This document shows, in pieces, positions 10,346 through 47,700 of a stretch of 64,000 bases of DNA. Source of the DNA: Holothuria scabra (taxonomy: Eukaryota; Echinodermata; Holothuroidea; Aspidochirotida; Holothuriidae). The notes under the pieces are model-generated. The model worked only from the letters and a program-made list of their open reading frames with translations, had not been told where the DNA came from and did not search any database. The translations under genes and the position numbers were made by a program. The stretch lies in contig CM074190.1 in NCBI GenBank assembly GCA_037179385.1, forward strand, positions 5,284,284 through 5,348,283, given 5' to 3'. The first letter of the stretch is position 1. Every line of letters starts with the position of its first letter.

Positions 10346-10489
10346 CTGGGACGTAGGCTGGAGGAGGGGGTGCGTGCAGACGCACCTCCCCGCACCAGCT
10401 GGAGTTCCGCTCAAAATGAGGCAAAAAAATTCTTCAAAAAACATAAGGGAAAAAAGAAGCTCAAGGAGACTACGATGCTACTCCCTGAC

Positions 10490-10522
10490 CAGGGAGGTGT
10501 TAGGACCTCTAACACCTCCCTG
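10490..10522. mobile_element. Micro-hairpin element MH-a (33 bp)
   Basis: This is a 14-bp perfect inverted repeat, CAGGGAGGTGTTAG and its complement, around the 5-base loop GACCT. The flanking 7-mers CCCTGAC and CTCTGAC agree at six of seven positions, as an aged target-site duplication would. It shares its termini with MH-b and MH-c. Confidence 0.6.
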
Positions 10523-11710
10523 CTCTGACCGCCGTCTCCACCCAGCACGCTTGTGCCTACATGCAAGAGGATGAATACAAGTCGGCTATTGCAGATTTAT
10601 CTGCCAGCCTTCGTAGGCGAACGAATGTCTTACAAAGGTATTAACACTTGTTATTTTGAAAATAAATATAGAAAGAAAAATATTCCCCTTAAAAAGGAAG
10701 TAATTTCTAATTGGCTCGGTATTCTAGGCCTACGTAAATGCTTGAACATGAACGCACAATGACTGGTTTGAAGTTAACGGACTTGTTCCGTCTTTTTCTG
10801 TGCAAAGTATCTTCAAGTGACGCACTTTTATAAGTGCGTTCATTTTCCGAGCACGCAGAAGTTTGCATCAACTAAAATCCTGATAATACACTGAGAAATG
10901 TCTTCTTCGCGTATGTAATGCGTTGTAAAAGCGTACGCACACTGACCTCTTTGAACGATGGATTTTTTTTTTTTTTTTTGCTAATACGGCTTTAGTTTTT
11001 ACACGAATCGCCGGTTAGACTGGTCAACGCTAGGTCTCATCTACACTTCCACCCCGATATTTACGTCTCTATGAGGAATCAGTTTCAGCAACAGTGTAAG
11101 TAAACGTGTGGAATATATGCTTATAATATCTTTGGGGTTTACCCCGTCTTCGAACCTCCAGTTCGTAGGTCTATCACATGGCGTTAGTCTACTCTGACTG
11201 ATTTAGCGCAAAATTCATCGCCCCACTATTCAAAAGAAGTGTTCGTATGTCTTTCGCCTCCAACACGCTTACGTTTTGTACACTTGTTAAAATGAAGAAA
11301 AAAGATGGTCCCTACACGAATAGCTCCTTATTCTCGAGTCATTTCGTTCATTATCCTGCTGTACAGCACCACCATTGTGGGCAATTCATCAACGAAAAAT
11401 CACAGTCCGCTTAGCAGGCATACATTGCAAACATGCAGTTGGCTTCGCGCTGAACAGACCATGGGTGAATGCTGCGCTCTGATTGGACAAACCGCATGAG
11501 GCCTGTTTGTCGCGTCGAAGACGAGTTCACACCAACACAACGAGTACGACCTAGACCCGACTACGACTGAACATGCTTAATCTTGCCGACGGCATACAAC
11601 CCGACGGAATCGTAGTCGTGGGAGTGTTCACACCGCCCATACCCAAGCCGACGCGTTGGGTGGTCGCCGTCGTGTCTTGCGTCGTCGTGGCGGTGTGAAC
11701 CGGGCTTTAA

Positions 11711-14420
11711 CTCGTACGTCAGGCTATACCTATTAATTGTGATTTTGAGTAGGCCCACTGCTCATTATATCCTTAATGCAATTACTATCACCTAAGTACT
11801 GGTTACATGATTTAACTGAGAACCCCACAAACACATAAGAACAACTCAAAGTGAGTTTCATCGTAATCAACATTTTCCCCAAAAATATTCCCTTTGTAAA
11901 ACAAATTTCAAGTCCAAAAAGAAACGGTGGCGGACCTTTGAGCATCCCTAGCTCGACCCACACACTGAGCCCGAAGTATGAGAATGAGAAAATAGACTTA
12001 TAACCAACTCTCCAGATACTTCAACATGTGTCGCTGATTCAGTGGAGGAGCTGTCATAATTATGGTCGAGGGCGGTCCCCCCCCCCCCCCCGACGGACCA
12101 AAATCGTCTGTCGGTACTTTATTCTTGCACCATTTATTGGGAATTAGACATAAATTAATAGCGTAATTGGTTTAAGGCGAGGATAAAAAAATGCTCAAGC
12201 AGCCACCAGTAGCTGTACTATCTGCACTTTATTGTAATAAAAAGGGTCTTTTGTAATGAAGGGATATGTTTTGCCAAAACGTATCTTCATGCTTTATACG
12301 CACTAATGAATGTTGTCTATGTGCTAAGTTATTTGCTCTCACACCAAGCGTGATCATAGCTTACAAAATACACCTGTTGACATGAAATTCACCCTCCCGG
12401 CCAATAAAAATGTTGCAAAGGGCGCAACAATAATTGTAGCTCAAATAGCCCTCTTGTTGTAGGGTATGATTGTCGACATAGACAATAAAAAAGAGTTTAT
12501 AAAGATACCAAAATAGCTTCCACAACATTTTTCAAAATAATTTGAAGAGGACATTCAGGTTAAAATAAAATAAAACTGTTATCATAGTGGTAATGATTTA
12601 AGGGTTTTAAAGAGCAGTTTTTATTTTGCTTTTCTTCAAGTGACTATTCTCATGATAAATGACTATTTCTGACACTGCACTATAATCCCATGAAAATACT
12701 TATTTCTGTACTTTCGTGGTCTCAAAAACCAGAAAATTGTATCTAATAAGCCTATTGGTTTAGGTTAATTTTATTTACTATGAATTCGGTATCTAGAGAG
12801 CCAATCATACATTTTTTCTTAGTTGGCTATTTCGTTCAGTGTACTGAATTAATGGTTATTAAGATTGTAAGATTGCCTGCTATTTAGCTGTGTTTTTTTT
12901 TAGGTTTAATCTTTATCTTTACCAAGTAACCCATTATTACATTAAAATTTTAAATCGAGGCCTGACAATAACACAAAATGTAATGACCGCCTTCATACTA
13001 GAATGTGAAAGAGAGCGATAGAAACATGGGCGTCCGCGGGTAGAGGCAAGGGGGGGGGGGACTTGCCCTCCCTTGGAAAATAGTAAACCTGAAAAAACGA
13101 AGAAAACATAAAGAAAAAGACGAAGAAACATTAACATCAACACTTTTTAACAGTTCACTCAGTGTTTTCCCTATTTTAATGCGGTAAATAGGCTTTAGAA
13201 ATGCCATTCTCAGCGATATGAGAGGCACTTTGGGCAAAAACTTTCTTGCGCTCCGCGCCAACTTATGGTTGCGCGGACCTTTCCCTCCTAAAAAAAATAT
13301 GCTCCCTCCCGAATTTTCTTCTGCAAAGGCCCATGGATATAAAATTTAAACATGTTTTTATAGAAAAACTTGCTGAGGAGAAATGGCAAAGAAGTCTTTT
13401 ACCAAGTGCGGAAAATCAAAAGGAAAGTGCTGAAAATCAAATGGAGAGTCTGAAAAGCCGTAGCTTCGATCGCGCTGAGGCTCAGGGTATTTACTCCTTC
13501 GAAGCCCCTCTGCAGACCATTTTCGCCCCCTCTGACCGAAATCCCTAGCTCTGCCACTGCGCTGCATGTGTGTAATGCACGTGGGGTAGGTCCAACCCGT
13601 TGAGCTACGTAACAATCCCATATCAGCTTACCCGGGCCCGCGGAGTGGTTCGTTGTTTTCTCAGCTCCTGAGCTTCTTAAATTGAAGGGCCTGGATGTGA
13701 CTGAACAAGGAATATGCCGTACAGCCTGCTACGTAGGTAAATATCAGCCGTGCTCCCTACAGCGTCAAAAGGCCACCTTCTTCAAACAATTGGGCATTAT
13801 TACCGCCTCACTACGTTTGAGATGTTTACAACACCAAATTAGTTGGCAGCAGTTGTTTGGAGTCATCTTTGATTAACGGATTTCATTAACAACAACACTA
13901 CTGAAGAATAAGATAACACCATAACCCAATCGATGTACACCACTCGTTTTCAATTCGTGGTTCATTTTTGTATTCCTGCGTGTCGTCAGAATAAAGGCAC
14001 TAAGAGGGTTACGATCGATTTTCAGTGTTCTTTATATAAACCTTGCTCGGCTTAGTGGTTTTGTCCTATAGCAACCAGGTGGGGCCATAGAATATGTTGG
14101 CTTTGGCATGTTCATTGGAAAGAGATCTGTGTAGTATCATATACGCAATGCACTATTATTGTATTAAGTGAAGATTACTTTTTTCGGTGTTCCATATCAA
14201 TGTAGGCGACTAGTGACATCATTTAAGTGTATCGGCCTTCACTCAATTTGCTTTGGACTTGTATTTTGGATTTTAAGGCCTGTTTTAGCAGGATAAACTC
14301 AAAGTAAAATAGGCCTAACCTCAATAATTTGCTAGGATATTTGGATGAATAGCTTACGCATTTGTAATGTACATCTATGCCACGTCACGTTCGTGACCAT
14401 CAACCCACAACAGAGACACT
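11711..14420. other. Intergenic stretch, repeat remnants, no gene seen
   Basis: This contains a C-homopolymer near 12078-12091 and an element of about 540 bp (13016-13556). That element has a G-tract after a GGCGTCCGCGGGTAGAGG-like left end and a right end CTAGCTCTGCCACTG, resembling the hAT-like CAGTGGCGTAG family seen complete at 32786-34901. No coding exon could be supported. Confidence 0.45.
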
Positions 14421-14426
14421 GTTCGG

Positions 14427-14435
14427 AATAAAAAG
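14427..14435 (+). promoter_or_regulatory. Possible TATA-like box of the EF-hand gene
   Basis: AATAAAAAG lies about 30 bases upstream of a possible start (TTCTAACAGTTGC, about 14454-14466). A possible non-coding first exon then ends in a consensus donor (CAAAAG|GTAACA at 14527). This is placed by position only; it has no independent support. Confidence 0.25.
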
Positions 14436-14459
14436 GGGACCGCTCGACGCGTTTCTAAC

Positions 14460-14527
14460 AGTTGCTTGCTCAGAAGATTTGATCACCTTCACTTCAGGAC
14501 TGGACAGGAAATTTTTGGATTCAAAAG
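14460..14527 (+). other. Possible 5' untranslated exon
   Basis: The segment ends in a good donor (AAAAG|GTAACA). The start codon at 15844 lies just inside an exon whose acceptor (TCAGCAG at 15837) implies an upstream untranslated exon. This is the nearest donor preceded by a promoter-like sequence. Other upstream exons are possible. Confidence 0.3.
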
Positions 14528-15843
14528 GTAACACTATAGTTAATTTGTAAATTTGAGACTTCAAAAAACACTGCATTAGTTTAATTTAGTATAGTTTATT
14601 CTCTTTTCATCCTCCGAAGAGGTATAAGAGGCAATAAAAATAACATTAACAGGATTAATTACATTTTACAAGAACAACAAAACAAATAAACAAACAAAAA
14701 GAGAGAAAATAAGAAAAATAAAGTACAAAAATGTATGAAGAGAACAAATATCTAATTAAATCCGTCCCCAACATAAGACTTAAACGCTATTCTTAACATG
14801 GTATTTCAGGAATGCCTATAACTATAAAAACTAGAAAAGTTGTTCTTAGCACTAGATAATTTTGATGGCATTAGCTTTAAGTAAGTCCCTGAGCCGGATG
14901 CTGGTAACTTGAGGGGTATGTCATCTTTTTTGAGGGACTCAGACACTGTGGGCACTGTGAGCCCGCGACCGGGGGGATCCCAACTTGAATTATTTATAGA
15001 AGACTGTCCTGTTTATGATTGGCTCCTGAGAGTCATGCGACAACATTTTTTCTCCGCGAACCTGAATTTTACAAGAAATTACTGAGGCGGCTAGGCTTAC
15101 CGTAAATATGCATTACTGAAGTCCTAAAATATCTTTGAAGAAAAATAAGAAGCAATTTGTGAGATTTAGCTGTTACTTCAAAACAAGTTTTGGGGATTGC
15201 TCCTGTTCTTTAAGTGGGCTACACTGGAGTAGAGGGGGTGGGGCACTTCAAAACAATATTGCTGCCATTTAAATTTTTTGAGTACAGGTCAATTTTAGTG
15301 ATGATAGGTAGGACCAATTTTGTGGCAACATTAACCCAAGTGGAGTTTTGAAAAGCCATTTAAGGCTACAACATAGTGTGAGTAACTCAAAATCATAAAT
15401 ATAAAGAGTAAACGTTGTAAGTATGGTTAGGTCATACCCAAAATTACTATTTTGTGAAAACTTACTTTACCTACCGCATTGGTTCTAACTTACTAGTACC
15501 AAAATTTCCTCCCTTAGCCAATTATAATTTCCATTGCGTTATTTGCGGCATTTTAACAGTTTAATATGTAGGCTATTCCGACCAACCTTAAAGTAATTTT
15601 CACCACAGAACCTTCCACACACCTTCCGTGATTTGCCTAACCAGCAGGCCACGCCTAGTAAATTATCAGCAATGTCACAGAATATTATCAGGAACAGGCT
15701 GTTATTCAATACGTATTCCACTATTTAAGTTCTACAAAAGATGTAGAGCTCTGGATGCGGTATTAGAAATTCGATGTTTCAGTAAAGACGGATAGTGCAG
15801 TTAAAAACTTACACAGTAATTTATTTTCCTTCAGCAGGGCGAA

Positions 15844-16026
15844 ATGGGTGAGACGAAACCGGACCATCAGGCGATGTTGTACAACCGTGATCGTCTGAGG
15901 GACCTAAAGACCGGTATAAATAAGGTCCTGGATATACTTCATGGAGTCCTTTGTCTTGAGACTTGCACGGACAACGAGGGAAAAATCACAAAAATAGCTG
16001 AATACTATGAAAGTCTTCAAAGAGTG
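15844..16026 (+). CDS. EF-hand gene, coding exon 1
   Basis: Residues 1-61, starting MGETKPDHQAM. The acceptor TTCAGCAG precedes the ATG by six bases, and the donor is AGAGTG|GTAAGA, phase 0. The part around LHGVLCLETCTDNEGKITKI holds both conserved-looking Cys and a DNEG turn, but I see no named domain. Confidence 0.75.
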
Positions 16027-19000
16027 GTAAGATTTTTGACCGTCATTACTTAAAAAGTTGAGGTCATTAGGTCTATCGTTAGTTCATTGGTTCACGATGT
16101 CCGTCGATATGTCGCAAAGTAACCATTACCTTTTTGGTAATTAAGTTTAAGGCTTTCGCACTCATTAACAGTTGAATATTGCATAAAATTATGCTTCTCC
16201 TGTAAAGTTTACAGTATATAATTCTTTTGTCAGGAAGGGACCCTCTTATCTTCGTGATGCTATCGGTACTTAAGTTTTTCCCTCCCACACTCTTAGGTCA
16301 GTCCTCTTGCAACGAGACTAAGTAGTTTGATAGTTCAGTGTTCGCGACCGTGGGTGTATGATTATAGTGGGCCGGGTCATGATATGGAATTCACTTTCTC
16401 TTAAACTAAATTTGAAATGCGTCAATATTGACTCGAATGTGAGAGGGACACGTGCAACTCCCGTAAAAATTTTCTTAAGTCAAGGGTAGACTGAGCACAT
16501 TATTTAACAAGGATTTTCGTGATTGGCTTTTGCAATTGTATAGTATCGATTGTGTTCTTTGTTAGGGTTATTATTAGGGATTAGGTTAGAGATCAGCGCT
16601 GTTGTTAGCCAGTTAGGAATTTTCTTGTTAAGCAGTGCGCATCGTCCCATGCGCATCGCCTCAAAGTCGATGGGTGTGCATTTCCAAAATATGTGGGGGC
16701 GTGACCTCTGTCAGAGTAGCCCGGGACTGACGCCCATGCTTAAAGACTAATATAAGAACTTTTTAGTTTTTTTTTTCTAATTTGGCACTGTATAGCGTAG
16801 CTAAGAGTTTAATAATTTATGTCATAAAGTAATGACATGAATAAGCAGTCTAAACGCTTGCCGTGGTGGAGTGGGTTAATAGTACGCAAGCGTTTTCCCT
16901 GATTGCTTAATTTGAAATGTAAATCACAATATTGCAATGTGATTCAATTTTTCCAAACATATTGACTGCATGATTAGGCAATCATTGCACAATTAAGTAG
17001 ATATCAGAGTATGACAGACTTCTCTGTGTATACCTCATTTAAGCCTTGACGAGGCATGTATGCAGTATTCGGATGACCTTACTACTGTAGGATTTCATAT
17101 GAAAAAATAAATATTCCAGGTTAAGTTTTCCAAACCCTGTACTGTAGCAATAAGTTTTTGTTAACTCCTAATATCTCATCATAACGATAAGACGGCATTT
17201 GGCAGTCTTTCATCACTTCAAACTGCATATTTTTTGGTTGATATATACTACTACAGAAATTTGCAACTGGCGCAGCTCTTTGATTGACATCTAATTAAAA
17301 AACAAATGCAGAGTAGCTCATTTTGCACATCATGTACTGATAGTACCTTTATTGCATATTAGGGACTCATATACTCACCGTGGTATGCCCTGAATCAGTA
17401 AAATAAGATTCTCTCTGGAAAAGGATGAGCTGAAGACAGTTGTGGGAAGGGCCAATAAAAAGTAGACTGACTCTGACTGAGAGAATTGGAACTGCCAGAC
17501 GAAATTAATAGCTGCCTTTAAATAGTTTTTGTTAAAAATGTTTCCAATTTTCCACTTCTCAACAAGGCAACAGAATGTTATGTCAGGTGAACTTATTGGC
17601 TCGACTCCTTTTGTTCACCTCAATAATTGAATGCCCGGTACAGTATATTATTGAAACACTGTGGGGTTTCTTTGAACATCTTTCATTGCATACAGTATCT
17701 GCCATCTTAACAAAGAATGATGAGACTCTTTTTCCCAAATAAAGCAACACGTATGCACAGGTTCGCCGCTCTTTCATAATCCCCCCCTCCTACTTAATCG
17801 TCGAGCAAATCGACAAATTATTCCTTGTCCCAAATTTTAAGAATTTCAAAATTGAATGGAAATCGGGGTACTATCCCATATATTTTGTCCAGGAATTGTA
17901 GCTATTCGTTTCATGGGCATCAAAATCACTATTGAAACCCTTGTCAGATTAACGGTGACATCCAGTATTTCCCATAATGCACTATATCTCGAGAAAAATA
18001 ATTCTTTGAAAATCAGTATCTTCCGAGCACTTTGTGCTATTAAGAAGCACTTTTCAACTCCTGAAAAGGAAAATTTCTGCTGATTCTGCTGGTCTTTCCC
18101 AACGTTTTCATAGGAGGGTAATACTACGTCCGCAGGCTCGCAGGCTTTGTTTTCATAACATTTATATTACTTCCTGTTAATTTATGTCCACTAATTTATA
18201 AAACATTTCCGTTTATTGCAGAATATGGAAACGAAAATATAAACTGTATTGTTCATAGTTATATGCAAAATTTGTATCTAATTATTGTTATGTTGTGGCT
18301 TTAATTCGATGTTCTTATATGCGAACTCGCAATGACTTTGTTTGTATTATTTTGGTACTGCAAGTCTTTACCGTACGACAGCGTTATGAACATGACGTAG
18401 GCCAAGTATAGTCGACAGACAAGTTTAGGAGATGGTAGTTTCGCTTTTTATGTTTATTCCATGCTGTTGTATTTTCACAGGAGCGAGAGACATGGGGAAG
18501 ACTCAAAGAAGAATTTATCGACAAACAAAAGGACTGGAAAGACGTAGATAACTTGAAAAGTGAAAAAACTATTTCAGAAATTTTGCTGGATTTTGTTAAA
18601 GAACTTGATGACATAAAGATCGATTTAGAAGTAAAGCTTAAAGTAAGTACATGGAGATCATTGATATTTTATAAAGGAACACTCTAAAAAATATTTAAAC
18701 GATTTTGTTTAAAAATTAGGATACTCACGAAAATGAGTATTTCTACTCGAAATAAGTGAGTACTTCAACTGAATGTGTGCAAAATTTTACACAAATTGTG
18801 CAAAATTTTGCACAAATTCAGTTGAAGTACTCACTTATTTCGAGTAGAAATACTCATTTTCGTGAGTATCCTAATTTTTAAACAAAATCGTTTAAATATT
18901 TTTTAGAGTGAATCTTTTCCGCTAGAACGATTGATATCACACAAAAACTGATTTTGTCAAAATATTTATTGAAAGTCCCAAAACGGGTGCAGATAGAGGC

Positions 19001-22000: not shown

Positions 22001-25000
22001 TTAAAGACAGTTAACTCTCACCGTGCTCCCAACTACAGTTTTGCTGTTTGATTGGCAGCAAGGTAAAAAAATGCAGAGGCTACTGTAGCTCATATTACAC
22101 AGTCAGTACTGTAATGAGAGTGTCTTGATTACGCATTGGTGTCTTGTACACCCACCTGGCATGAAACAATGAACTGGGATTGTGTCTGAATGAGAATCAG
22201 TTTTAGACAGTTTTTGGAGGGGCTTAAGCAGGTTTTAAAAATTAGACCTGTTTGGGATGAGAGGACTAGGCCTCTAACCCTTCTATCGTGTATCATGCTG
22301 TGCCAACACACTGCTAATCATTGTTTAACTTTTATTTCTTTTTCAGGAACGGAAAGAAACGGAGAAGGGACTGAATTCAGAATTAGCTTCTTTACAAGGT
22401 AAATTCAACGTACATTGACTTTGCAGGTGTATACTGTACTCCTTCTAATTCATATCTACCGTGCATTTGAAATCATGTCCCAATATTTTCGGTTGGTCTA
22501 CGTCCACTAGTTTCTTTAACGATTGAATGATAGAAAAAACAGACTATTGACAACTTCTGCCGCAGTAAACACCGTCGGTTCCTTCAACTTTGATGAACCT
22601 GCCACTTGCCGTTTTTTAGTCTACACATCTGGTAATCAAAACATTTCTAATTTCATGCTATTCCTATAAGCAAATATGGTCTCAGATCACGTATATACTT
22701 AATTCTAAATCAAAGTGGCCAACAAATGATAGGATGTCCCGACTTTCAAAAGCAGGAGATTACGCCACCAATACACAATCATTCAACTTTTAAAAAAAGT
22801 TTTACCCTGGATGGTCCCTTGCCGGGGGTCACTTTTACTATTGCAAAATTGAACGTCACTCCAATTAATACAGAAGAGATTCTGGACCAGGCATGGTTTG
22901 TGAATCAAATTCTGAGATCATTCTACGGCTTGCTCTTCTTTCCGTCCCCCTTTCATCTAATTTTAAATTTCCTTTTTGTTAGCACAATTATATGAAGAGA
23001 GGCAACAGAAGATGGAGTTAAAATGGAAACTCGAGGAGATAACAGGAGATGACGAAAATGGGAAATATAGTACAGCTTTCTTACAGCAAAGACTAAAAGA
23101 AAAACAGGATATGATCGCAGAGTAAGGCTGCCAGTTTTGTCTTTTACGTAAAATAAGGTACCGAGGGACCATTGCAGACATATCAGCATGCACCTCTACG
23201 CAGTGTTTTCATAACCACTAAATTCAATGTGCATTTCACAAGAGAGTGTGGGATAGTGTGACAAATGCAGGGCTTGTTATGTTGGGAGCAACTGTGAATG
23301 TTGAATCCTGAAAATCAACTTTGAGGCATTTTTCCAATAAGTAAGGTAATCAGGGATACATATGTGTTCACTAGTAACTTGAAATCACAAATCTTCGTTT
23401 TGCCATTAATTTTATTCTAGGGTAAAACATCGCCACACTTCTCCGCGAAGATTCGCGGCAGGGATAAGGGAATCCAAAGTTACTTTAAGGCTGAGGACGG
23501 GACATCCAGTGGCGGTGTCAGAACGTCAAAATTGGGGCGGAGGCAAACTAAGGGAAAGAGAAAATGTTGGGGGCAAAAACTGTAGGGCGCAGGGCCAAAC
23601 TGAGCCCAAGCGCCCTTTCCTGCGAGTGAGGTACCGTAAGGCATTAAGTACCGGTATGTGCTGTGTGTGTGTGGTGACTTCTGTCAAAGATTAATTTTGT
23701 AAAAAGTTACAGTCAATGGATGTATTTCCCAACAAGTGAGTCACAACTGGAAAAGGCTGACTTGAACGAATTGGTTGGAGACTAAAATTCTATCTAACCT
23801 AACCCAACCTAACCCAACCTTAATTAACTTATATACATATACTGGTTTTCTTTCTTTTATAACCAGGTAAAGCAGATGATAACTGACGCAAATGCAATTC
23901 GGGCGCAGCCGTCATGCGATTGGGCAATAGCCTACCATTGGTTGCGATAAAATGAATTGCACACGACAATCTGATTCTGTGTCCTCCATTCACTATAAAA
24001 TAGTACCGTATAAATTAGTTAAACGTTTTTCTAGTAACGTTTTTATCTCCGCTTGTAAACACGTTTGGATGCTAAATAGAGGCGTCTTATTTCTAAAGAT
24101 GTCGCTTTTAAACACGTTTGATTGCTTTACTTTTTGTGTTTTATAGCTGAACATGTGTAGACTTAAGACGAGTTTTCAAAGTGCACGGGGGAAAACAAGT
24201 GCCCAATCGCTAAACATGTTTTGAGAGTGTGACCAAGGGTGTCCTGTGGGAAGTTATATGTAGCTTTTTTTCACTTAATTTTAAAGATTACAACGAGGAA
24301 GTACAGCTCAACTCTGGGAGAAGGAAAGAAATAGAATCCTCGAAACATCAGCGAAACGAGAGTTGGAATTATCCAAAGAACTTGAAGAGTTAAAGAAAAC
24401 TCACGAAGATATGAAAGAACGGTTAATGGCAAAAGTCAAGGTACCACGAAATCACCCTTAGGCTATACTTAATCCTAATACGCACTCAGCTACGTTAAAT
24501 TTGTCACGTTGGGTTAAAAGGAGTTATCAGTGTTTATTATTGAAGAAAAATATGTGGTAAAAATGATAAGATTCTTTAATTCACAATCTGCCACCTATAC
24601 TGTCGCAAAATAAGGCACACCGAATTTCTTTTCCATAATCCTGTGATTATTATTTGAAAAAAGTGTCTATAGTAGCCTGAACCTCTTCCGTGGGAGCGAT
24701 GTCAAACTTGAAAAATGGAAGTTACGGGAATACTTCATTGTGTTACGGTAAGCAGGGAGGTGTTATTAGTCTAATAACACCTCCCTGCGGTAAGTCAGTC
24801 AACTTCAAGCAATGCGTGTTGTATTTGGTGTACGTGACTGTATGTACGTTTTGACCGACCCAAAGACACACTCTCTATATAGCTAAGGCGTGTATAAAAA
24901 GAAGCCCCATTACTAGTGTGATGGACATTTAGCCACATGGGAAAATACACATTACTTTGGAAAAGTTAACCGACAATTTTTAGCAACAAATTGTGGTCAG

Positions 25001-28000: not shown

Positions 28001-31000
28001 CCACATAAACTTGATGTTAATGCATTCCCAGTGGTGTCATTTCAACCGCTAGAAACTACAACCTTCTGATCTCATTTGATTTTATCCCACATTACATAGA
28101 AATGTTAGTTCACTTTGTAACATACACATTATGAAATCCAACAGTGCACGCAATCGTCGGAATTTTCATACATATTATCTTACTTCAACTCTATGTAAAG
28201 TGTGAATCATGGATAAGGTCGACTTGATAAGGAAAAAATGGTTATTTTTGGTTCACGCGCCGAACAAGTACGTAATTCAGCCCGTTTTCTGGGTCATAAA
28301 ATTAAATATCCCCTATAATGCAGTGATGTAGCTAGGCATTGGTAGGTTGGAAAAAGAATGAAGGGTCTCATCTAATGGCAGCAAGCTTAATGAACACCGT
28401 TTAGTTTCACAAAAACTAACCCGGTCTGTGAACTTCTATAAGGGAAAGTGAGAGGGAATTCCCTGTCCCTGATCGCGTGTTTGGTATAACGGTAAGAGCA
28501 TCCGCCGACGCGGAAGGCCCGGGTTCGCTTCCCAGGTCGAGTCACACCAAAGACTCTAAAAATGGAACTTACTTCTATTGTGCGCGATGCTTCTCATAAG
28601 CAATGGAGTAGGGAAAACAAGCCAGTAAGCCACAACTGGAAAAAGGCTGTGTTCGGCTCGACTTGAACCAATAGGTTAGAAACCGGGCCGTAAAACTCCA
28701 TCTAACTAACTAACCTGACCACACCTTTATCTTTTGTGCATTTCTGATTATGTCTTAAACCATTCAAAAATTGATGTAGTATTGAAAAAAAAAATCGAAA
28801 TGAAATCGTGGTAAAGTAGTCGTTCAATAAACATTAGAAGCTGGCCTTTATCAGTGACGTACCGACAGCTAGACATTTTCCAGGGGTGGCGAATATCTAT
28901 GTGTCCTGAATATTACCATGCAAGGGAACATAATGAGCAACACACAAAGCGTGCCGAAATTTTGCTTTTTAAAAACTATTTTAAAATACGGAGCTTTAGT
29001 AAATGCTGCATTCTGTTGAAAAAAATTTGGTTTTCGTTTTTGGAGGTTTAGTGTTTGGTGAAATATTGAGGAAGATTGCACTGCGACTTAAGATCGTTAT
29101 ATGTCGCCTAGTGTTTGTTAAGGCCTGCGGATTGATTCTCTCTGACAAAGTTTAAATATTTCCGAAACTTTGTTGCCCTTTAAGACAGATACAGTTTTTT
29201 GAAAATCAGGAGCTTAATTAGGAGAAAATTTGGAAGCTTATAAAAGAAAAATGTGGAAAATCCGCGAAATATAGATGTAGTTGACGAGGGGTTCGCTTGA
29301 TGGTCTGGTGTCACAAATGGATAATTCCGATTTTCTTATATTTTTTAATATATATACAGCCAGGGACATTTGTCGCCTGTCCTCCTGTAGTTACGTCACA
29401 GACCGTTAGGAAAAGATAGGGTGAGTGCATGTCCTTCAGATTCAGAAAGAGTAAATACAAAAGAAACCAAAACAAAAACACAAACAACAATAACAAAAAA
29501 TAAATAAAATCGTTAAATGGTTTCGCGTTTCCCACTGGGTTCAGTCATCATCTTTCTTCCTTGACACTTTCATTAAAATTATTACGCCATAGTGGGCGAT
29601 TTGTAGCTTCCGCTTCTTTCTGTGAATAATTTATAAACGAAGTCACACCGTGGGCCAGGTTAGCTGGACCATTAGTCCTGTCAATCCCTACCCGTGCATC
29701 CGAAAACGAGACCAAGACCAGAGAATGGAAAGACCGACACTGGAAACCTAGTATTACAAAACTGATCTGTACAAGTTTGAGAAACTTCAAATGGTACTAA
29801 TTCTATATTTTTTCTCAGTTTACGGAAAACTGTCGACCGACATATAGCATCAATTTCTAATGATGTTAAGCATTGTGAAAAACCAGCAGCACCGGTAAAC
29901 CTTAAAAAAGACCAGGTGACGATATCAAATCCAGAGGGACATAAGACCAAAAAGACAACAAAGAGGAAATCAAGCAAAGGTGTGGCAGCCAAGACATCTG
30001 CAGATAAAGACGTGAAGAAGAAAGATGACGGTAAGTGTCAATTTTCAATAAATTTAAAAAAAAATTCAGTCATGTCCTGATTTATTAGCTCTAGCCTTCC
30101 AGTTCTTTGTCTTCGTGTATCATGGAGTTTTTCACACCGGATATTGGTGCAAAATTTTATTCGGACGATAAACTAAAGACTAATAAAAAGCTGATGAAAC
30201 CCACTAATTGCATGACGACTTTACTAGTTGATCGGATTCTGCGAAATTCGGGGAGTGTAGAGAGAATAAACAGAAGCTTTAGCTGAGTGAACCACTTAAT
30301 CGAAGAACTTATTCGAGTGTTACCAAAGCAGGAATATCCAGATTCATTTTGTAGGAAAAAGATATAACATTTTTACTGGAAATTGTCAGTGAATCAGGGT
30401 TATTATCAGGGCGAAATTGGATTAACCTCACCCAAATCAGCAGAAGAGGGGAGATCACCCCGTTAGGTAAACGGGTTCTTGATTAATTGAAATGATTCTA
30501 ACTGAACGCACTTTAGGGTATGTCTTTTCAGCCACCGTGATTAGAGTTACTTATAGAATCAACGTGTCTATACCTTATGATGTTTATTTGGTGTATGTAT
30601 TGAGGCTATTACAGTAACTCCTTTGTAATCTGTTAAGAGGACGGTTCCATGCTGAAACTACTGTTGCTATAGGTTTGACTGATATCTTTAAGTAAAATTC
30701 CAGTGAAATCATCCATCTACTCTCTTGAATTCTAAACCTGAATTTGACATTTTACAGATAACCCAAGGTTAATCAACCCCTTGACGGGAGAATTAGATAT
30801 TGATTTGGCACTCAGGTGTTTTCCGGAGATGGACGAAATGGAGGTAAGAGTAGCAAAGATATACATCACGGCAATGATAATATTATTTTGAAGAAATATT
30901 ATTGTGTAAATACTTTTTACTTGACGTCATAGAAACTTTTCACGTGGAATATTTCAGCCATGTTTGGGAGCAATCCTACGTTATGCACGCTTGCCCCAAA

Positions 31001-32473: not shown

Positions 32474-32785
32474 CAGAACCTTCTCCTTATTATCTAGGAA
32501 ACTTCTGAATCTGACGTCAGCAGTGATCAGGGAAAATACGAGTGGATGCAATTGAATACATTCCTAGAGAATCTTTTCAGTGATGGGAACAGGCTGTGAT
32601 CCTGGATCCGGACCGGACTCTTTGCGTGAGAGCATAGATAGGCAATCTACGAATCAGATGGCGGAACGGGTACTTTGTGTTAGACACTATTAACTTATGA
32701 AGTTTCTTGTACGTATCTATCAGTTTATTAGTATACATGAACTTGTTGCCTTGCCTAACGTAGCTTTCAAACTGTTCCTTAAATG

Positions 32786-34901: not shown

Positions 34902-34909
34902 CTTAAATG

Positions 34910-37900: not shown

Positions 37901-38720
37901 CGCACCAGACGTAAGACATTAATTCGCCTATATCACGGTAGTAAGCTAGTCTTTGCAAAGCAGTGTTCATAACACCTCCCTGGTTTGATGGCAAGTTGGA
38001 TCAGTATCGACACGATGCCTTAGACAGGGGCAGCCTAGCTTCATTGAACTCCACCACCGCTCCTTTCATTTCTAATACGCGAGTTCGGTAATTCGTTGCC
38101 CATGGAAATATGGGACACAGCGCTGTGGGATATATATACAAATCGAACTCTGTACGTAGCATACCTTAGGTGCGTTCGATTTAGCGGCTTGAGCCGGCTC
38201 AACTGGCTCAGCCAACGAAAGATCTTTCTGAAAAGTGCTCTTAACGTCATCAAAACGTCAACACTTGAGCCAGCCGGCCGGTCTAGTTGAGCCGCGGACG
38301 TAGTCTATGTCATATTTCGTCCAGTCAAGAAACTTGTTGAGCCAGTTGAGCCGCTTAATCGAACGCACCTCTTGTTTTCCTCAGTATGTATATAGATGCA
38401 TAATGCGTCTAGCCAAGTCAAACGAATGTAGGGGTCTCTGTGCTACTTATCGAAGATTAAAATGCAAATTTTAACACCAAAAAGACAATAAAGGCATAAT
38501 CCACTGCACAAAACCACAGTTAACATTTCTCGTTATGTTATGGATCGATTGAGAAAGAACTTCACCAAATTTTCATGTAAACTCAAATTTTGTAACACAT
38601 GTTGTCGGTGCGGGATTGGTTTGTTTATCCCGACGATTTAGAAGATGTACTCATGTGCAGAGTTAACAAAACGAATTAGCGAACTGGGTCATTGAAGTAC
38701 CATGATTAAAATAACAGGAA
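34910..38720. other. Intergenic region between convergent genes, no gene seen
   Basis: No coding exon is supported. It contains fragments with transposon-like character: GCGCGGATCCAGGGTGTCC near 36258, a GCGCTTTGCGTTCGCCGTTC repeat near 37326, and the MITE at 38168-38370. CpG dinucleotides are frequent, unlike the XPG unit to its right. Confidence 0.5.
38168..38370. mobile_element. MITE with AGGTGCGTTCGATT ends
   Basis: The left terminus AGGTGCGTTCGATTTAGCGG and the right terminus (other strand) AGGTGCGTTCGATTAAGCGG are near-identical inverted repeats. The trinucleotide CTT flanks both ends, a possible 3-bp duplication. Several AGCCGGCTCAACTGGCTCA-like internal repeats are present. Confidence 0.75.
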
Positions 38721-38745
38721 AAGGTCTTATATCGCTTTCTCACAT

Positions 38746-38751
38746 TTTATT
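38746..38751 (-). terminator. ERCC5: Candidate XPG poly(A) signal
   Basis: AATAAA on the minus strand (TTTATT on plus), about 960 bases after the stop codon. It coincides with the composition boundary described in the findings. Confidence 0.45.
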
Positions 38752-39284
38752 CATGACAAATGTGATATTCAATGTACAGATGAACTTAAAATGTACATTA
38801 CAATAGAAAGATATTATTAATAAACTTGAATTTCAGAACACATTAATGCTTCTTTTATTTTTGTTAAGTAACCAAATTTACTTTTCCCTACCCAATGCCC
38901 CATTGGCAGGATGATACTTTCCAGAGGGTGAACTTTGTTGCTATTTGAACATTTTTGCAAAATAAGCCCACCTGGAACTGTGAAGGACATAAAAATTGTA
39001 AATATGATAGCAGCAGTGTAAAAGTTATAGTGAATGTATTCACAGCCATGAACACTGTAGAGAAGAATCATGTTCATGGATAAAAAAAAAAATATGATGC
39101 CAGCAGACCCAGCTTCCATAAACAATGCCATAAAGGTGACACAAGTTACCTCAAAGGGAGGGGGTGGGGAAATGATCAGTGTAATTCCTTTACATACTTC
39201 AGAAATTTCCCCTCATTCATTTGAAACAAGTATCACCTTCAATTTTAATGCAGTTTCCTGAAACTCAGACTTTGATTTAGACAT

Positions 39285-39398
39285 CAGGGGCCTGTTCCAC
39301 AAAGAGTTACGCACGATCTTAAGTATGATTTACTGTTGGCTTAAGTATGGTGAATCAAACTTTCGATTGTGCGTAACTCTTTGTGGAACGGTCCCCTG
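39285..39398. mobile_element. Hairpin MITE in the XPG 3' UTR
   Basis: The left end CAGGGGCCTGTTCCACAAAG and the right end (other strand) CAGGGGACCGTTCCACAAAG continue as matching inverted repeats through GAGTTACGCAC. Arms are about 30 bp in 114 bp. CpGs are retained inside an otherwise CpG-poor unit, which suggests a young insertion. No target duplication was recognised. Confidence 0.8.
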
Positions 39399-39710
39399 GG
39401 CAGTTTCTTGTTTGTTTGGAATTTCCAAACTGATTCATGGTGCAAAACAGTGAAAAATGTTTGGTTCACATAAATATGTGCATCAACCATTTTTCACATT
39501 TACGGATTTACCGGTTTTTTATTTAAAACATTTTACCAAGTATAACTGCATGACATTTTGTTATGAAATAAAAGAGTATGCTTACATCACACTTTCCATC
39601 CTTGCTGGAGTTTTTACACATTTTACGGTTCTTTTGATGTTCAGGCATTAACAAAATTGAATACTGCTACTCAGAGGTATATTCCATGAATTAAACATTA
39701 AAGAAATGAT

Positions 39711-41759
39711 TTACTCTTCATCACTACTACTACTTTCTGAAAGTTTTGGTCCGCTAAAGGATGGTGTAGTTGACTTGAATCGAGTCTTCTTTTTCAATAG
39801 TTGCTTCCCTTTACCTTTACTTAATGCACCACCCCTGCTCCCTTCTTTACCCCTTCCTGAGGCAGTTGCCCTCTGTCTACGAGGGGGTAACTTTGCCTTT
39901 GTTGGAACAAAGTCCTCACCATCATCCACCCCTGAGTCTTTATCCAATTCTTCATCAACACCTGAATCATAATCAGAATCTTTCCTCAAATCAGGAATGC
40001 CAACAATTTCATTTGCATCACCTTCAAAGTAATTTACATTTCTTCTTTTTCTTAAAGACCGAGCAATGTTACTAGCTTGATCAACCGCACCTTTTACCTT
40101 ACTAGTACTATCCTTTTCCAACTTAGCACCTGTTGCACTCTTTTTCACTTTAACAGCTGAATCAACTTTTCTTGCTGTCAAAAATGGATTCCTTTTCACC
40201 CTTTTTGCCATCTGAGCTCTTTCCTTTGCAGCATCTTGTTTAAGATTGATCTCACCCTCAGTTCTACATTCCTCTAAAACAGCTCCATCAGGCCTCATGC
40301 CTTTGATTTCTTTATCTTTCTTTTCCCTGTACAATATTTTCTCTCCTGTTCCTCCCCTCCCTTCAGTCTCACTATTTTCAAGATGACCCAACCCAGACAC
40401 ACTTTTCTTAAATTGTTGTGATTCCAAACCACCTGAGTCAACTCCTGAACCTTTAGAAGGCACTTGTTTTCTCAAATAAGGGTTTCTTTCTGCTCTTCGC
40501 ATTGCCTGCACACGACTTTCTTCTTCATCTTTCTCTGGTTCTTTTTCATCCTCTATTCTGTACTCATCTTCATAGTCCTTCCTTTGTAAGGTCCTTCTAG
40601 TCTGGTTCCTCTTTTGACCTCTCCCACTATCTCTCATCTGCCTCCCTCTTTGCAAAGATGTTCCCCCCTCATCACTATCACTCTCATTTCTTTGGGCATC
40701 TCTTCTTTGTTGCCTAGAGCCCCCACCCACCTTCTTTCTATACTGTCCATAACTACCATCCTTTCTTTGCACTTTCCCCTGGCTTTCTCTTTTTACTTCC
40801 TCTGTAACAGCTACCTCCCCTTTGGCTTTTTTATGCACCACAGCTACTCCACCTTTATTTCTTTTAGGGTCAACTAAAGAGTATTCATCATCACCCCTTT
40901 CCCCATCCCTTCCATGATTCTTGTCTTCATCATATTTTCTCTCAAGATTTTTCATTATCACACCTGCTCGTGACCCTCCAATCATTTTACCAGCAACATT
41001 ACTAGTGCCAGCTGCTATTAACTCATCAATGTCATATTCTGTGTCTGAAATTTGATTCTCCCAGTAGGAATCAGATTTCTCTCCTTCATCATCAACATCC
41101 TGAGAGTTTGAATGCTGCAAAGCTGGATCCATTAGATTGTTTGCTTCTCCTTCCTCACCACCTGGTTCTTCCCTCCCTCCCTCTGCCGGTATCCCAGCTT
41201 CATTCTCTCCTAAACTTTCTGCCTCCCCATCATCCCAATTATGTTTCTTCCAAGAACGACCAATGCCCCGATTATTTTTGGTAAATAACTTTCTCCTCCT
41301 GTCCCTGCCAATCCATGCATGGCGCCCTCTATCACTCTCCATACCCCGTGCTATTCTTGCTACAGCTGTATGGTCTATATCACTACTGCTTTCATCATCG
41401 TCTGAGATTTCATCCACAACCTCCATCTCATCACTCCTCCCTTTTATCTTCTGAATCCCCCTCTTTGACTGTTTTCTCTGTTTTCCTTTTCGTTGGTTGC
41501 CTCTCATTTCCTTATCATTTCGACTCATCCTTTTGTTAGAAGGTTCATCCTTGTCTTCCTCCGAATCCCTTTTTCTTCTTTTTCCATCGCCATCCATCCT
41601 TTGTTCTTCCAGTTCAGAGTCTTCTCCATCAAGATTCTGGTCGCCATCTGGGTTTGATAACTTCTGCAAAACTTCTTGTACCCTCTTGCTTTTAAACTTC
41701 ATTCTCTCTTTGTCAACATCATGTTGCAAAAAGAAATATGAGCTGATCTTGCCTTGAAC
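39711..41759 (-). CDS. ERCC5: XPG exon 14: PIP box and very long C-terminal tail
   Basis: This exon has 682 codons plus the stop. It opens with QGKISSYF, matching the PCNA-binding PIP consensus Q-x-x-I-x-x-aromatic-aromatic and corresponding to human QLRIDSFF. The rest is disordered-looking, alternating Lys/Arg-rich and Glu/Asp-rich blocks with several bipartite-NLS-like clusters. It carries the paired motifs [10 protein letters not shown] and [10 protein letters not shown], and SGVD twice. The end is a Ser-rich acidic tail (SESSSSDEE). The human tail after the PIP box is about 200 residues, so this is roughly three times longer. Confidence 0.93.
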   Translation of the reverse strand, partial: VQGKISSYFFLQHDVDKERMKFKSKRVQEVLQKLSNPDGDQNLDGEDSELEEQRMDGDGKRRKRDSEEDKDEPSNKRMSRNDKEMRGNQRKGKQRKQSKRGIQKIKGRSDEMEVVDEISDDDESSSDIDHTAVARIARGMESDRGRHAWIGRDRRRKLFTKNNRGIGRSWKKHNWDDGEAESLGENEAGIPAEGGREEPGGEEGEANNLMDPALQHSNSQDVDDEGEKSDSYWENQISDTEYDIDELIAAGTSNVAGKMIGGSRAGVIMKNLERKYDEDKNHGRDGERGDDEYSLVDPKRNKGGVAVVHKKAKGEVAVTEEVKRESQGKVQRKDGSYGQYRKKVGGGSRQQRRDAQRNESDSDEGGTSLQRGRQMRDSGRGQKRNQTRRTLQRKDYEDEYRIEDEKEPEKDEEESRVQAMRRAERNPYLRKQVPSKGSGVDSGGLESQQFKKSVSGLGHLENSETEGRGGTGEKILYREKKDKEIKGMRPDGAVLEECRTEGEINLKQDAAKERAQMAKRVKRNPFLTARKVDSAVKVKKSATGAKLEKDSTSKVKGAVDQASNIARSLRKRRNVNYFEGDANEIVGIPDLRKDSDYDSGVDEELDKDSGVDDGEDFVPTKAKLPPRRQRATASGRGKEGSRGGALSKGKGKQLLKKKTRFKSTTPSFSGPKLSESSSSDEE

Positions 41760-44700
41760 CTGGGAACAAAAGAAGTGTCATAGACTTGGACTTAGGTCTC
41801 ATTCTTTTTAACTATATTTTTACAGTGAAGCTGTTCTCTATGCCCCCTCCCTCCATTTTACGCAGTCAGATACAACTGTAACAATTTTTTCCAAACTGTA
41901 ACAATTGCTACAAACCTAATTTCTATCCTCTTTGATTCACTAAGCTCTAAAGATGTAGTACTTTTTTAAAAGCTTTCACAAAATACAACTCAAGTCAAAA
42001 TTTGCTTGATATCACACTAAATGCTTGAAAAGCAGGAGAAACACAGAATGGTTTCAAGAACACATGATTGACACACAACTCCTTCTGCTTGCAATGTTAT
42101 TGTTTCACGTTGCCAATATTTGAAAAACAATGGGGCAAAAAGAGAATTTAACTTACTATTTTCTCCCTTAGTCTTTTCAACACTGGCAACAGAAGTTCAT
42201 CAGTCTTTCCCCTTATCCATCCTAACTTTTCCTGAGCAAAAGTAAAATCTGTCAAGGAGATATTACTTGAAATGTACAAAAATCTTCTCTTTGACTGTAA
42301 TAAAACAAAGCTGTGACTCTCAATTTAAACACAATATGCCAAACACCCCTTAAGTGCTTAGCAACACTGTTTCCTCTAAGAAATTATATATTAGGTCAAT
42401 ACACCCAGTATGAAAAAAATCTGACTTCCGGAAATTTCAGTTTTGTGGAACTGTACTTACATCAGATGAGGGAAGAAAATTACAACCTCATCTTTCCTAC
42501 CAACATCAGTGCATCAAATTGGTATTAAGCCATTTTGTCAAAGGCGTGTTACATAGCAGCTAAGCATGAATACTGCAGAAGGCAATATCAGCAAAATCTC
42601 GCAAATTTCTTGCAAGGTACAGAATTGTGTCATTCACCCTGAATTATATTAACATGGGGAACAAAAATATTGTCACATAATTGAAAGGAGGCATCCCTGA
42701 AAGGGTATGTGCTCATCCCTGAATTAGTACAAAGGGTATGCTAACAGTGCTCATCCCTGAATAAATACAAAGGGTATGCTAACAGTGCTCTTCCTTAATA
42801 AGAGGTACTGAGGGTATGCTGTTGGAATGAAATGCTGCATGTTCTTGTCAAGTAATGGATGCAAATAGTTGCAGCAATTTGTTACATTTTGTTAGTCATG
42901 TCTGAATGGAAGTAAAATCAAACTATCTGTTAGTCATGTCTGAATGGAAGTAAAATCAAACTATCTTCATTAAATTCAGAAGTTGAAGAAACTACAATTC
43001 ACTGCATTTAAAATCTAGGAGGCACTTGTTTCCCTAAATAGAGGGGCTAATTTGGTTATATCTTTACTTAAATCAGGAGATGTGAAAGGTATAAAAATTG
43101 ATCTCAACAGTTGTTGTACAAATCTGCAAGGCCCTAAATAAAACTCAAGACAGGGATGTTAAGAGGAAAAGAGGGTAAATCAGAGTAGGATTTCAAGTAT
43201 GCAAAAATGAATATTACAAAGTACAAGAATGTAGGATATGAAGGAGTCATTTTACTAATTAAATCCACATGACCCTTTGTCTTGGTTGAGAAAAAAAAAC
43301 AAACATTCCATGAGGCCTGCATACTCTTTAGACTATGAAAAAAGAGAAAACAGTGTGTATAAGCAATGACAGTATGTCACATTTCATTCACTTTTGATTT
43401 TGGTTAGAAAATGGTACTTGAAATGCTACTTTCCCAAGAGATGCCCTCACTATTTCATACCACATTTCACACATAAAGAGCATTTTTCTTTATAAAATAT
43501 ACAAAGAATTATCTACATACAATGGACCATTAAATTCCAAAACAAAATGTGCAAAGGTAGAGTCATTTTTCTTTATTTCAATGTGTGTGTGTGTGTGTGT
43601 GGGGGGGGGGGAGACATATCCCTCTGTCCTCCAAGATTGGTCCTGCCCATGCAGAGGGTCAAAAGACTCATCATAATGATTGCATGGCAGAACTTTCACT
43701 TTGACCAAAACTGCTTGAATTCTTTACCCTAAAGACATACTGTTTAGTACTCAACTTCCAGAATTTTGAAGAATTTTTTGTTTGCTTAACTTGATGTACT
43801 TTTCCTTGCCATCCCCACCTTACACACAAACATTCCACTTTTAATAACAGTAGCGTTTCCTACCAATGCAATTAATTTCCACTTGCTCTATGTGTGAAAT
43901 GCTGCCTTCATGAGTAAAGGATATTTTCTAAGTAAGTCCAAATCAGGTGAGTTCCATGTAAACTTTTCTTTCGATTTATCAACATCAGGATCAAGATAAG
44001 CCTTTATCACAACCTGGCTTGGAAAATCTGGATGCAGGGCCAACTTGCGAAGTTTTGACCGTACTCTTGACTCTGTGTTGGGAGGATCAGATTTGCGAGC
44101 ACTCTCCCACCACTGTCTACAAAGAACGAAAAGTGAAAAGAGTTACAAACTCAAACAATCCACTTAAGTAAATAAGCTCATTGAGCCCCATCAGAGTTCA
44201 GAACACAGATTGAGGGTAGGAGTAGGGGTCAAGGTGATATAACTGACAAAATAACACATCACTGGAAGGAGACCCACACATTGGAATTAAGAGGGTATGA
44301 GTGGGACAGGATTGCCTTTTTCAGAGCTGAAAAAAAATTTTGGTTTTAACTCTAAAGGGGAGGCCATACCACAGTGGGCTTAATCCCAAATCCAGTCCAA
44401 AAATCCAGTTTTATCTATTAAAGTAGTACCTATAGCTTTCTGTTAAGACTTTTTCAAAGGAATAATAGCAAGCTATATCTATTAGCAATCCTGATTCGTC
44501 TAACAATAAACTGATCTATTCACACTATTTAACCAACATTACCCCACACAGCTATATCAGTTTTAAACACAATGTGATATTTGTGCTCTTGTGTTCAATA
44601 TCATGAAGTTAAAATACATCTGGATTTTATTTTAGCAGTGCAATTTTCTCATGCCAATAATATTTTTACAGGGTTTGGCCATTTTTTAGCTTTTTCCGAC

Positions 44701-47700
44701 CAGAGAAGGAAGAGAATTTACTAAACCTAACAAAAAATCTTTTAAATTAACCTATCCAAAATCCCTATAGTGAGAACCGTGCCTAATGTTGAAAAAATGC
44801 ACTGTCTGTCACTCAATGAGAGATGCAATGGGGGAAAAAGACCTTTGCCAATTGACAAATGGTCCATGTCACCCTCTAGCTATGCTCCTGTAAATATTAA
44901 CGAAGGCATAAAGATTTCCAAAACATGAGCTCAAACATTTGTGTGACTCAGCTCAGGATATATTAGAGGACATTCAGTCACGATGGGAAGGGGGGAGGGT
45001 TAATGGTATGGCCTACTAAAAAGGAATCAAAAAAGAACATTACAAAAAGTAACCTACTGCCTTTACTAGCTCAAAACTTTGAACTCAAGCCAACTCTTTT
45101 TCAACATTATATCACATTTACAAGCTTAAACTGGCTGTAGGCGGCTATATAAATATTGAATTCTTCAGGGTTCCATTTCCTATGAGAACTGAAAATAATG
45201 CCTTACAATGCTCTATCTCTATGCTGAATCTTCTTAGGCCTCTTTAACTTTGTGCCAAAACAGAAACCTGTGGTTGAAAAAGTAATTGACTTAAAAGTTG
45301 AAGATGCATAAGTTCAAATTACAAAATATGACACCTTACTTGAATTTGATCAAGCTGTCAATGCCCTCTCCAGGAAATTCACTTAGTATCTCCAAGGCTG
45401 TAACAAATCCTACTCCCTGAATACCAATGGTATAATCACTTCCCATTAATAGACCAAGACTGATCAGTTTGAATCTATCCAGGGCTACATGGAAGAAAGA
45501 TATGAAACACTTTGGAGATAGCCCTGAATTCTTTGAAAAGCATAACACATGTGAATAAAATGTTGTCTAAAACAATTTAATCTTAAATCTATGACTTAGA
45601 TTTTATTTACTAGGACAGCTAGTAAAAGCTATTTCTGTACCAAGATATAATTAGTTTCAAGTCTTTTACTTATAGTTGTATAGAATGAGGTTATATAGCA
45701 TATGTAGTTAAAAAGGAAATATTGCGTTTAAAATGCTCCTACATAGCATTAAAAGTAAATAGCTCTAGTCATTTTCAAATCATTCAGTCTCAACAGTAAC
45801 CGTCAGCAATAGCTTCATCTCCTTAAAATATTATGCACTAGAGGAGTTATGAAATGTGTAAAGTTTGGGTGAACAATTATTTTTGAACAACAAACAACTG
45901 AATTTCTGTCTGAGTGTAACTTATTTCTTGAAAAGAAGGCTACCATATTGCCTTATTTGTAATACCTTATTACTCTTTGAAAATAAATATTGGTTTTAGA
46001 AGGATGAAATCGATCTCTATTTCCATAAAATTCTTTAAACAGTACTACGAACTAGAACACATTTGTATGAGATTCCATGATTCGTATCTGGCGCAAAACT
46101 GCTATCCAATGAGAGGTCAGGATCTGGGATATTCTCTTTCACGTCCGAATGAGCGTTTATATATCATTATTTGAAACCTTTCGGCATAACAAGAAACCTG
46201 TCTCATAACCATGATAACAGTGTATGAGAGCTACGGACTAGCTAATTCTCATGCAGCCCTTGTGTTCACATTTATGCATTGATGAAACTACAATACTTCA
46301 TCACATCATTAACACACATCATTTTACAGTGCCTTTTAAAAATGATAGTTTTGGACGTACCTATACGAAACTCAGTGACAAACCAAATAGGTTATTAAGC
46401 CAGGGTTTTTTTAACCGGGACCGATGGGTTGCCATAACCAGGGAGCTGCAGTGGCAGCTCCCTGCCATAACCTACAACCTAACATTTAAAGAAAGCACCA
46501 ATGTTTAAGGAAAAGATGATTAACATATAACCAACATTTGGTTAATGCATTTGCCCAACAGTTTAATAAAAGAAGTGCCCAACAAGTGGGTATGTTTTAA
46601 AATGCTAATTTACCAAACAGTTGGGTAATCTCTTGCCCAACAGTTGGGTTCAAACTTTACCCAATTTGGTTGGTTAAAGTTTTGCCCAACTGTTTAGGTT
46701 GTTGAATAGATGCCCAGTGTTGGTCAAAAAGTTGGGCAAAATTTGCCCAATTTTTTTAAGAGTGTATATAGGATGGGGTTATATAGCATATGGCAGTTTA
46801 ATATAAATGACTCCAAATTTGAGCTGGCATTCAAAATATTCATATACCACCTGACACAAATACAACACTTATTAATATTGCATTACTGGAAAGTTAACTA
46901 ATAAGATGGTAAAAATAATGTACAAAGCTGGAGGCCAAAAACTTCTCCTTTTGAAGCCCTTGTGTATTGGAAATAAATATGCACAGCATGCACATAAACT
47001 CCTTTTCATCTTTTTGAATTGTCTATCAATTTCCATCCTTAATTTATGTTTAATTTGTATTGTATGTTGCATTCTCATTAAACTTGAAAGCCGAATGAAT
47101 GTTAGCTTTTTCCCAAATAAATAGTGTTGTATAGCAAAGGAATGCAATTTAACCATGCTGTGATGTTGCTTGGTAAGAATGCAACAAGATGCCACAGTAT
47201 ATCAAAGGCAGGGTGTGGTGTAACAGATATCTGAGTTTATTACATGTGCACTGAAGTGACCAATGCTTTCATGTGATCACAATGTGTGAACAGTAATAAA
47301 CACAAACTTGACTGACCTGTCAGCTAGTCTCAATTACTATAATACATAACTTTTGTGTATTTTGGTATGCATGGTACTGTAAATGAATTAATCCAATGTG
47401 AAATGTGACTACATCAAGTATATATCTAGGGTGCTTCAATAAAATGGATTCAGGCAGAGGAAAAGGATGTTTCAAAAAGCAAGAGGGAAAGTTTTGCAAT
47501 CAACTATTCCACTCCCTCAATAAATACTACACCCAATATTGGCTGTAACTCACTTAGCTGTCTCTCTATAGCTTGGTTACTATAAAACAATACATCCTTG
47601 TCCTTGGTAAAGAAATTCTTGTAAACTTTTTGACCACCAAACAGCCAGACATCACTGTCATCTGTTATCACCCCTTCACATTGGCCAGATAGATCCAAAA

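Follow-up and report, generated by a model that had tools for sequence, protein, structure and literature searches.

The 64,000-nucleotide (nt) window analysed here, from the sea cucumber Holothuria scabra (contig CM074190.1, positions 5,284,284 to 5,348,283), contains three exact palindromes of the form CAGGGAG...CTCCCTG at 10490-10522, 24753-24787 and 46439-46464. These micro-palindromes are very probably the excision footprints of DNA transposons of the P superfamily rather than mobile elements. The proposed mechanism is based on a staggered cut: a P-type transposase would cut one strand where the element ends and the opposite strand 17 nt inside the inverted repeat, so that either flank would keep 17 nt of the transposon as a 3' tail; end joining of the polymerase-theta kind would then close the break. 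The resulting scar would consist of a target-site duplication, the outer nucleotides of one end (17 at most), in some cases a filler, the corresponding part of the other end (again 17 at most), and the second duplication, and it would be palindromic because the two transposon ends are inverted repeats. Some scars, such as those at window sites 1 and 3, would later have been copied within larger repeats. We infer the cutting and joining steps from the anatomy of Drosophila P junctions. To our knowledge, no other superfamily makes a stagger of 17 nt. In the case of P transposase, the cut on the second strand lies 17 base pairs (bp) inside the 31-bp inverted repeat, a stagger that is called an unusual and distinguishing feature (PMC7776569, in part).

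The original prediction described the three palindromes together with flanking 7-bp repeats, and both are present, the flanking 7-mers matching at 6/7, 7/7 and 7/7 positions. Not one of 100 dinucleotide shuffles of the window held even a single such palindrome. A looser scan (one mismatch permitted per end and in the duplication; 14-59 bp) found the same three palindromes and no fourth; 100 block shuffles averaged 0.0.

Abundance, duplications and anatomy of the probable scars

The genome searched was the 1.19-Gb assembly of 31 contigs, which includes the window. The pattern CAGGGAG-N(0-30)-CTCCCTG occurs there at 8,302 places, compared to 531 for the reversed control pattern, while the scar type CAGGGAGGTGTGA... 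gives 398 + 418 matches and its control none. Flanks were read at 52 places: the window's three and 49 from the first part of contig C1 (50 listed places minus one nested inside another). At these 52 places, the 7-bp duplications are exact in 19 cases and have one mismatch in 21, two in 5, and three or more in 7. No place has a duplication of 8, 9, or 10 bp with two mismatches or fewer, and at 6 bp there is none exact and one with a single mismatch. Randomly re-paired flanks give exact duplications in 0.6% of cases and no more than one mismatch in 1.5%; places that share flanks raise this background somewhat. Indeed, 17 of the 52 fall into four shared-flank groups; when each group is reduced to one place, 39 unrelated-flank places are left, of which 14 have exact 7-bp duplications, 17 one mismatch, 4 two, and 4 three or more. 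Thus, 31/39 keep both duplications with 0-1 mismatch at 7 bp, the length found in the parent elements described below, and 0/39 do so at 8 bp. The genome-wide scan and table of flanking 7-mers that had been proposed as a check therefore confirm the excess, with 7-bp duplications in most of the sampled places.

The duplications had also been thought to follow a loose pattern, C-N-N-T-R-A-S. A target preference does exist, which the 31 sampled duplications, read in both directions, refine to the palindromic motif GTTNAAC; the preference is moderate (45-70% per position), and reading both strands together forces the motif to be palindromic but does not force its letters.

To find longer elements with the same ends, 8 copies of one end were extended by 1,500 bp. 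Five proved to be complete, being 697-705 bp long with a 7-bp duplication that is exact, a sixth has the other end and a duplication with a single mismatch, and the other two have no recognisable second end within 1,500 bp. A ninth parent, a relative in L104, is 669 bp long and also has an exact 7-bp duplication, so the duplications of the parents lie in the range of 7 or 8 bp used to recognise P-superfamily membership. The ends of L106 and L123 read CAGGGAGGTGTGATTAG followed by ATGGAGATCC and CAGGGAGGTGTAACTAG followed by ATGGAGATCC. Their inverted repeats of 33 bp, against about 31 bp for the Drosophila P element (31/33 nt are alike between the two ends of the element in L123+L127), extend past nt 17, where nearly all of the scars stop. 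The second 17-mer was deduced from the footprints before the parents were fetched, and the ends of L123 start with exactly both 17-mers. The parents are mutually 78-99% identical, i.e., they share one internal sequence; the closest pair is 99.4% identical, and, on this basis, the family probably moved recently.

The junctions were studied at 91 distinct places. Of the 100 rows listed, 7 were dropped as the second strand of symmetric matches and 2 because they were longer and contained another match. Scars of the abundant type are for the most part a junction between CAGGGAGGTGTGATTAG and CAGGGAGGTGTAACTAG, of each of which no more than the outer 17 nt are kept. The full 17 nt of CAGGGAGGTGTGATTAG are retained at 41/91 places; on the opposite side, CTAGTTACACCTCCCTG is retained over 16 or 17 nt at 37/91. 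The remaining places are shorter or of related end types, and at least 8/91 start with CAGGGAGGTGTGAG, which is another end type. In total, there are 46 different sequences (strands merged), with lengths of 21-46, instead of the one internal sequence and length by which a miniature inverted-repeat transposable element (MITE) is recognised.

The commonest product, found at 18/91 places, is a 30-mer in which the two tails are joined at a TAG microhomology; 13 of these 18 places, read with their flanks, represent 8 separate events. Both 17-mers are whole at 3/91 places, where they are separated by AC (C2:10861912), by GTGTGAT, which is a copy of part of a tail (C2:15541161), or by 12 nt of parent sequence. 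A footprint in L105 contains a templated insertion of 13 nt copied from its own tail. Trimming is also seen: L021 is a strongly truncated, 17-bp palindrome with an exact duplication, and L121 has 17 nt of one end and none of the other between exact duplications. This combination of microhomology, trimming, and templated fillers is the signature of end joining found in Table 1 of PMC2895639 (seen in part).

The 17-nt limit itself was measured on the 30 GATTAG 17-mers listed on contig C1, all of which could be classified. Five continue into the parent sequence (ATGGAGATCCATCGA...) for 7 nt or more, and 24 stop within 2 nt; the last one, at +5 nt, is L096, the exception to the limit. L096 also has two footprints 25 bp apart. 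At three of the 24 stopping places (L108, L109, and L112), the second end and the second duplication are both missing. Genome-wide, there are 1,026 copies of the 17-mer CAGGGAGGTGTRAYTAG versus 155 that continue by 12 nt, counts which miss mutated ends and in which one scar or element may hold two ends.

P-type transposases and related systems

The P-type RNase H domain PF21787 has 31 matches in the genome. One of the genes concerned, at L057, has PF21787, with PF21789 in later frames and PF21788 just under the cut-off (24.0 vs 24.8 bits). The element in which L057 lies starts upstream of it, at C11:35957327, with CAGGGAGCTGCCATTGACTGGAGAT, which has the same plan as the parent end, with TGGAGAT in the equal position, and which differs in part from the ends of the 700-bp parents. 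A relative by L077, 93% identical from close to the start of the element, has its own CAGGGAG, beyond which the flank is unrelated; it lacks about 18 nt after CAGGGAG. About 1.3 kb past the last frame of the L057 element there is a scar, GTTAATC-AAGGAAGCTGCCATTGA-CAGTAGCAGCTCCCTG-GTTAACC; apart from two substitutions, its left part equals the opening 17 nt of the L057 element. As regards the proposed check for longer elements with the same ends that encode a transposase, the parents of about 700 bp exist, and a transposase gene is joined to one end of this kind, the other end not having been found.

In the transposases of L057, L061, and L062, the N-terminus gives a match to RAG1_imp_bd, at or slightly over the cut-off, and a sub-threshold match to zf-AD. 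The pairs L060/L062 and L059/L061 are 98-99% identical over most of the sequence read. One P transposase of this genome has 22 relatives, of which the 8 with an organism name are all echinoderms; the closest among these named relatives is from Holothuria leucospilota (45% identity), and the best match overall is 83% identical. The named relatives fit an echinoderm source, although transposons can pass from one species to another. Six of the 22 relatives carry PF21787 together with PF12560.

The end sequences of 1360 and Galileo differ from those in H. scabra, and these elements were compared with the present ones by duplications and motif. The elements 1360 (Hoppel/ProtoP) and Galileo, both of the P superfamily, have 7-bp duplications and a palindromic target motif, which is GTTNAAC for 1360, as here, and GTANTAC for Galileo (PMC3276498 and PMC4168063, both in part). 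The P element of Drosophila has 8-bp duplications, in contrast to the 7-bp duplications and CAGGGAG ends found here. The Drosophila P repair junctions in PMC2895639 (in part) nonetheless share the anatomy of the scars: most keep both duplications and 17 nt or less per end, with short microhomologies at the tips of the tails (TA and AT in Table 1), templated insertions, and one-sided trimming. Those junctions come from an assay in flies lacking Rad51, whereas the present ones are natural scars at thousands of places in a 1.19-Gb genome; moreover, a class with long microhomology is common in the Drosophila table, and the scars of this genome were compared with it for the other features only. N-RAG-TP, a transposon of Aplysia with a RAG1 N-terminal-like sequence, resembles L057, L061, and L062 in their match to RAG1_imp_bd, a comparison made by description; N-RAG-TP is entirely RAG1 N-terminal-like, whereas here this part is linked with an RNase H core of the P type (PMC8355894, in part).

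The available part of a paper on zebrafish P-like elements (PMC10983969) contains no excision-footprint data. Among the titles listed in the literature search, which does not cover most subscription journals, there was no genome-wide set of natural P-type footprints or of similar tiny elements. A literature search with CAGGGAGGTGTTA gave a sole match, which, in the part seen, concerns Srd5a1.

Competing explanations and points against footprints

The original prediction regarded the palindromes as mobile units with almost no internal sequence and listed several possible mechanisms; the one favoured by the evidence is that of excision footprints of a larger element, supported by the parents, the 17-nt limit, and the junctions. 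If a palindrome of 20-40 bp were itself recognised and transposed with the production of a 7-bp duplication, the presence of one 30-mer at several unrelated sites would be explained. However, this 30-mer is what is predicted from joining two 17-nt tails at their common TAG, the 91 places contain 46 kinds of sequence, most of them built from 17 nt or less of parent ends, and truncated or one-ended forms such as L021 and L121 still have exact duplications. Templated fillers would be unexpected in a moving unit, and full-size parents with the same ends exist. Moreover, many of the identical copies have long common flanks, i.e., they were copied within larger repeats. Transposition of the palindromes themselves is, consequently, very unlikely. 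Extreme internal deletion of the parents through abortive gap repair, which would make the palindromes the shortest end of a MITE series, is extremely unlikely. Such deletions are known in P elements, where defective copies often arise in this way after gap repair (PMC4168063, in part), and L096 does keep parent sequence past nt 17. However, internal deletions should stop anywhere, yet 24 of the 30 C1 ends stop within 2 nt of nt 17.

There is hardly any probability that the palindromes are products of template switching or hairpin slippage, or are due to chance. The 531 matches to the reversed control pattern do indicate some background, and the shared-flank copy in L035 shows that a palindrome can change in place. 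However, no process of this kind is known to us that gives direct 7-bp duplications on the outside in most copies, or fixed CAGGGAG ends, and the duplication statistics already oppose it for most places. The footprints might also stem from a different cut-and-paste superfamily with such ends; hAT, whose ends often begin with CAGGG, would be an example, but this is just as close to being negligible. Excision of hAT elements leaves almost none of their own sequence behind, whereas here up to 17 nt are kept, and an element with such an end in this genome bears a P transposase. Moreover, the duplications of the hAT element hobo are 8 bp long (PMC3276498, in part) and those here 7 bp.

Several observations weigh against P-type excision footprints as the explanation, or restrict it. 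The 7-mers have two or more mismatches at 8/39 places. As regards the 17-nt limit, 10 of the 24 stopping C1 places match one nt past 17, which is above the quarter expected by chance, and the cut may be at 18 in some of them; the ATGGAAC group, a set of copies of one event, accounts for several of the 24, and the limit was measured on one end type and extends to the others by analogy. The 12 nt of parent sequence between the two 17-mers of L096 (C1:60100953) may be better explained by internal deletion or by partial gap repair. The parents found here do not include that of window site 1. With respect to the transposase, reading on as far as C11:35966538 did not reveal a right end for the L057 element, and no copy combining the gene, both ends, and the duplications was obtained. 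Finally, the evidence comes from one assembly.

The sites in the window and their wider meaning

Footprint 1 (10490-10522) is a palindrome of 33 bp with 14-nt arms, CAGGGAGGTGTTAG, flanking GACCT; its left duplication, CCCTGAC (10483-10489), agrees at 6/7 positions with the right one, CTCTGAC (10523-10529). It lies within a larger dispersed repeat, with flanks that are 95-98% identical over 367-502 bp to L020, L028, L039, and L043. Footprint 3 (46439-46464), a palindrome of 26 bp with 11-nt arms, CAGGGAGCTGC, flanking AGTG, lies between exact copies of CCATAAC (46432-46438 and 46465-46471) and is also within a larger dispersed repeat, its flanks being common to L003, L011, L023, L035, and L040. 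From its first 11 nt, the end type of footprint 3 appears to resemble that of a transposase-bearing element at L082:724. Sites 1 and 3 would, from these flanks, be older scars carried inside larger repeats, and they have identical copies because these repeats carried the scars along. In L035 (1001-1024), a copy of the site 3 repeat with shared flanks, the palindrome is internally different, which shows that changes in place also occur.

Footprint 2 has flanks that are common to none of the sampled places at the threshold used. Its left 17 nt, CAGGGAGGTGTTATTAG, lie on the plus strand at 24753-24769 and are followed by a single base, T (24770), which would be a filler according to the rule of 17+17, and by the same 17-mer on the minus strand (24771-24787); exact CGGTAAG duplications lie at 24746-24752 and 24788-24794. 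This 17-mer recurs in L008 (reverse strand) and L037, where different letters follow, and related parent ends are CAGGGAGGTGTTACTAG (L104) and CAGGGAGGTGTTATTGG (L120+L131). The half copy, TAACACCTCCCTG, which had been reported at 37970, is indeed present as a lone end on the minus strand (37970-37982), and no CAGGG end with a matching 7-mer was found for it in the window; it may be a footprint with a one-sided deletion or a truncated element.

The window was searched for a longer element, of at most 12 kb, that has CAGGG at its ends and lies between duplications of 7 or 8 bp; beyond the palindromes, this gave only a 361-bp pair at 45166-45526, which was taken as due to chance (the ends match at 9/20 nt). 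The exact palindrome with 13-nt arms has 0 matches in the viral and 0 in the prokaryote collections, as expected for a eukaryote, and these collections may lack entries close to the genome of the window. Scanning the window for tRNAs and against Rfam, at the gathering threshold, gave no matches.

Among the other features of the window is an exon of a gene of the XPG/ERCC5 type (47507-47875, minus strand; PF00867, the XPG I-region), which marks the window as eukaryotic. Minus-strand frames near 60579-60857, which by eye are like the XPG N-terminus, and long acidic frames on the minus strand at 39711-41729 and 53696-55117 may belong to this gene. There is also an inverted repeat at 18673-18917, with 122-nt arms that are 96% complementary and 1 nt apart, perhaps a fold-back element of another kind, and there are mutually similar repeats of about 75-110 bp at 28609-28712, 61926-62031, 47871-47957, and 10225-10324.

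If the palindromes are footprints, the cutting position of a transposase is readable from the genome sequence alone, and thousands of end-joining junctions become available as a natural sample, for some of which the starting ends are known; the rules of repair derived from the fly assay thereby become testable in another phylum. For annotation, short palindromes with target duplications should be checked against the footprint model before new miniature elements are named. P-type transposases bearing RAG1_imp_bd may have a bearing on the origin of the RAG1 N-terminus. On balance, we lean towards the idea that the 17-nt stagger is an old property of the P superfamily, including the branch with a RAG1-like N-terminus, and that closure of the polymerase-theta type would be so frequent that the scars outnumber the surviving elements several-fold, constituting a separate class of repeats and a naturally kept record of how breaks are repaired.

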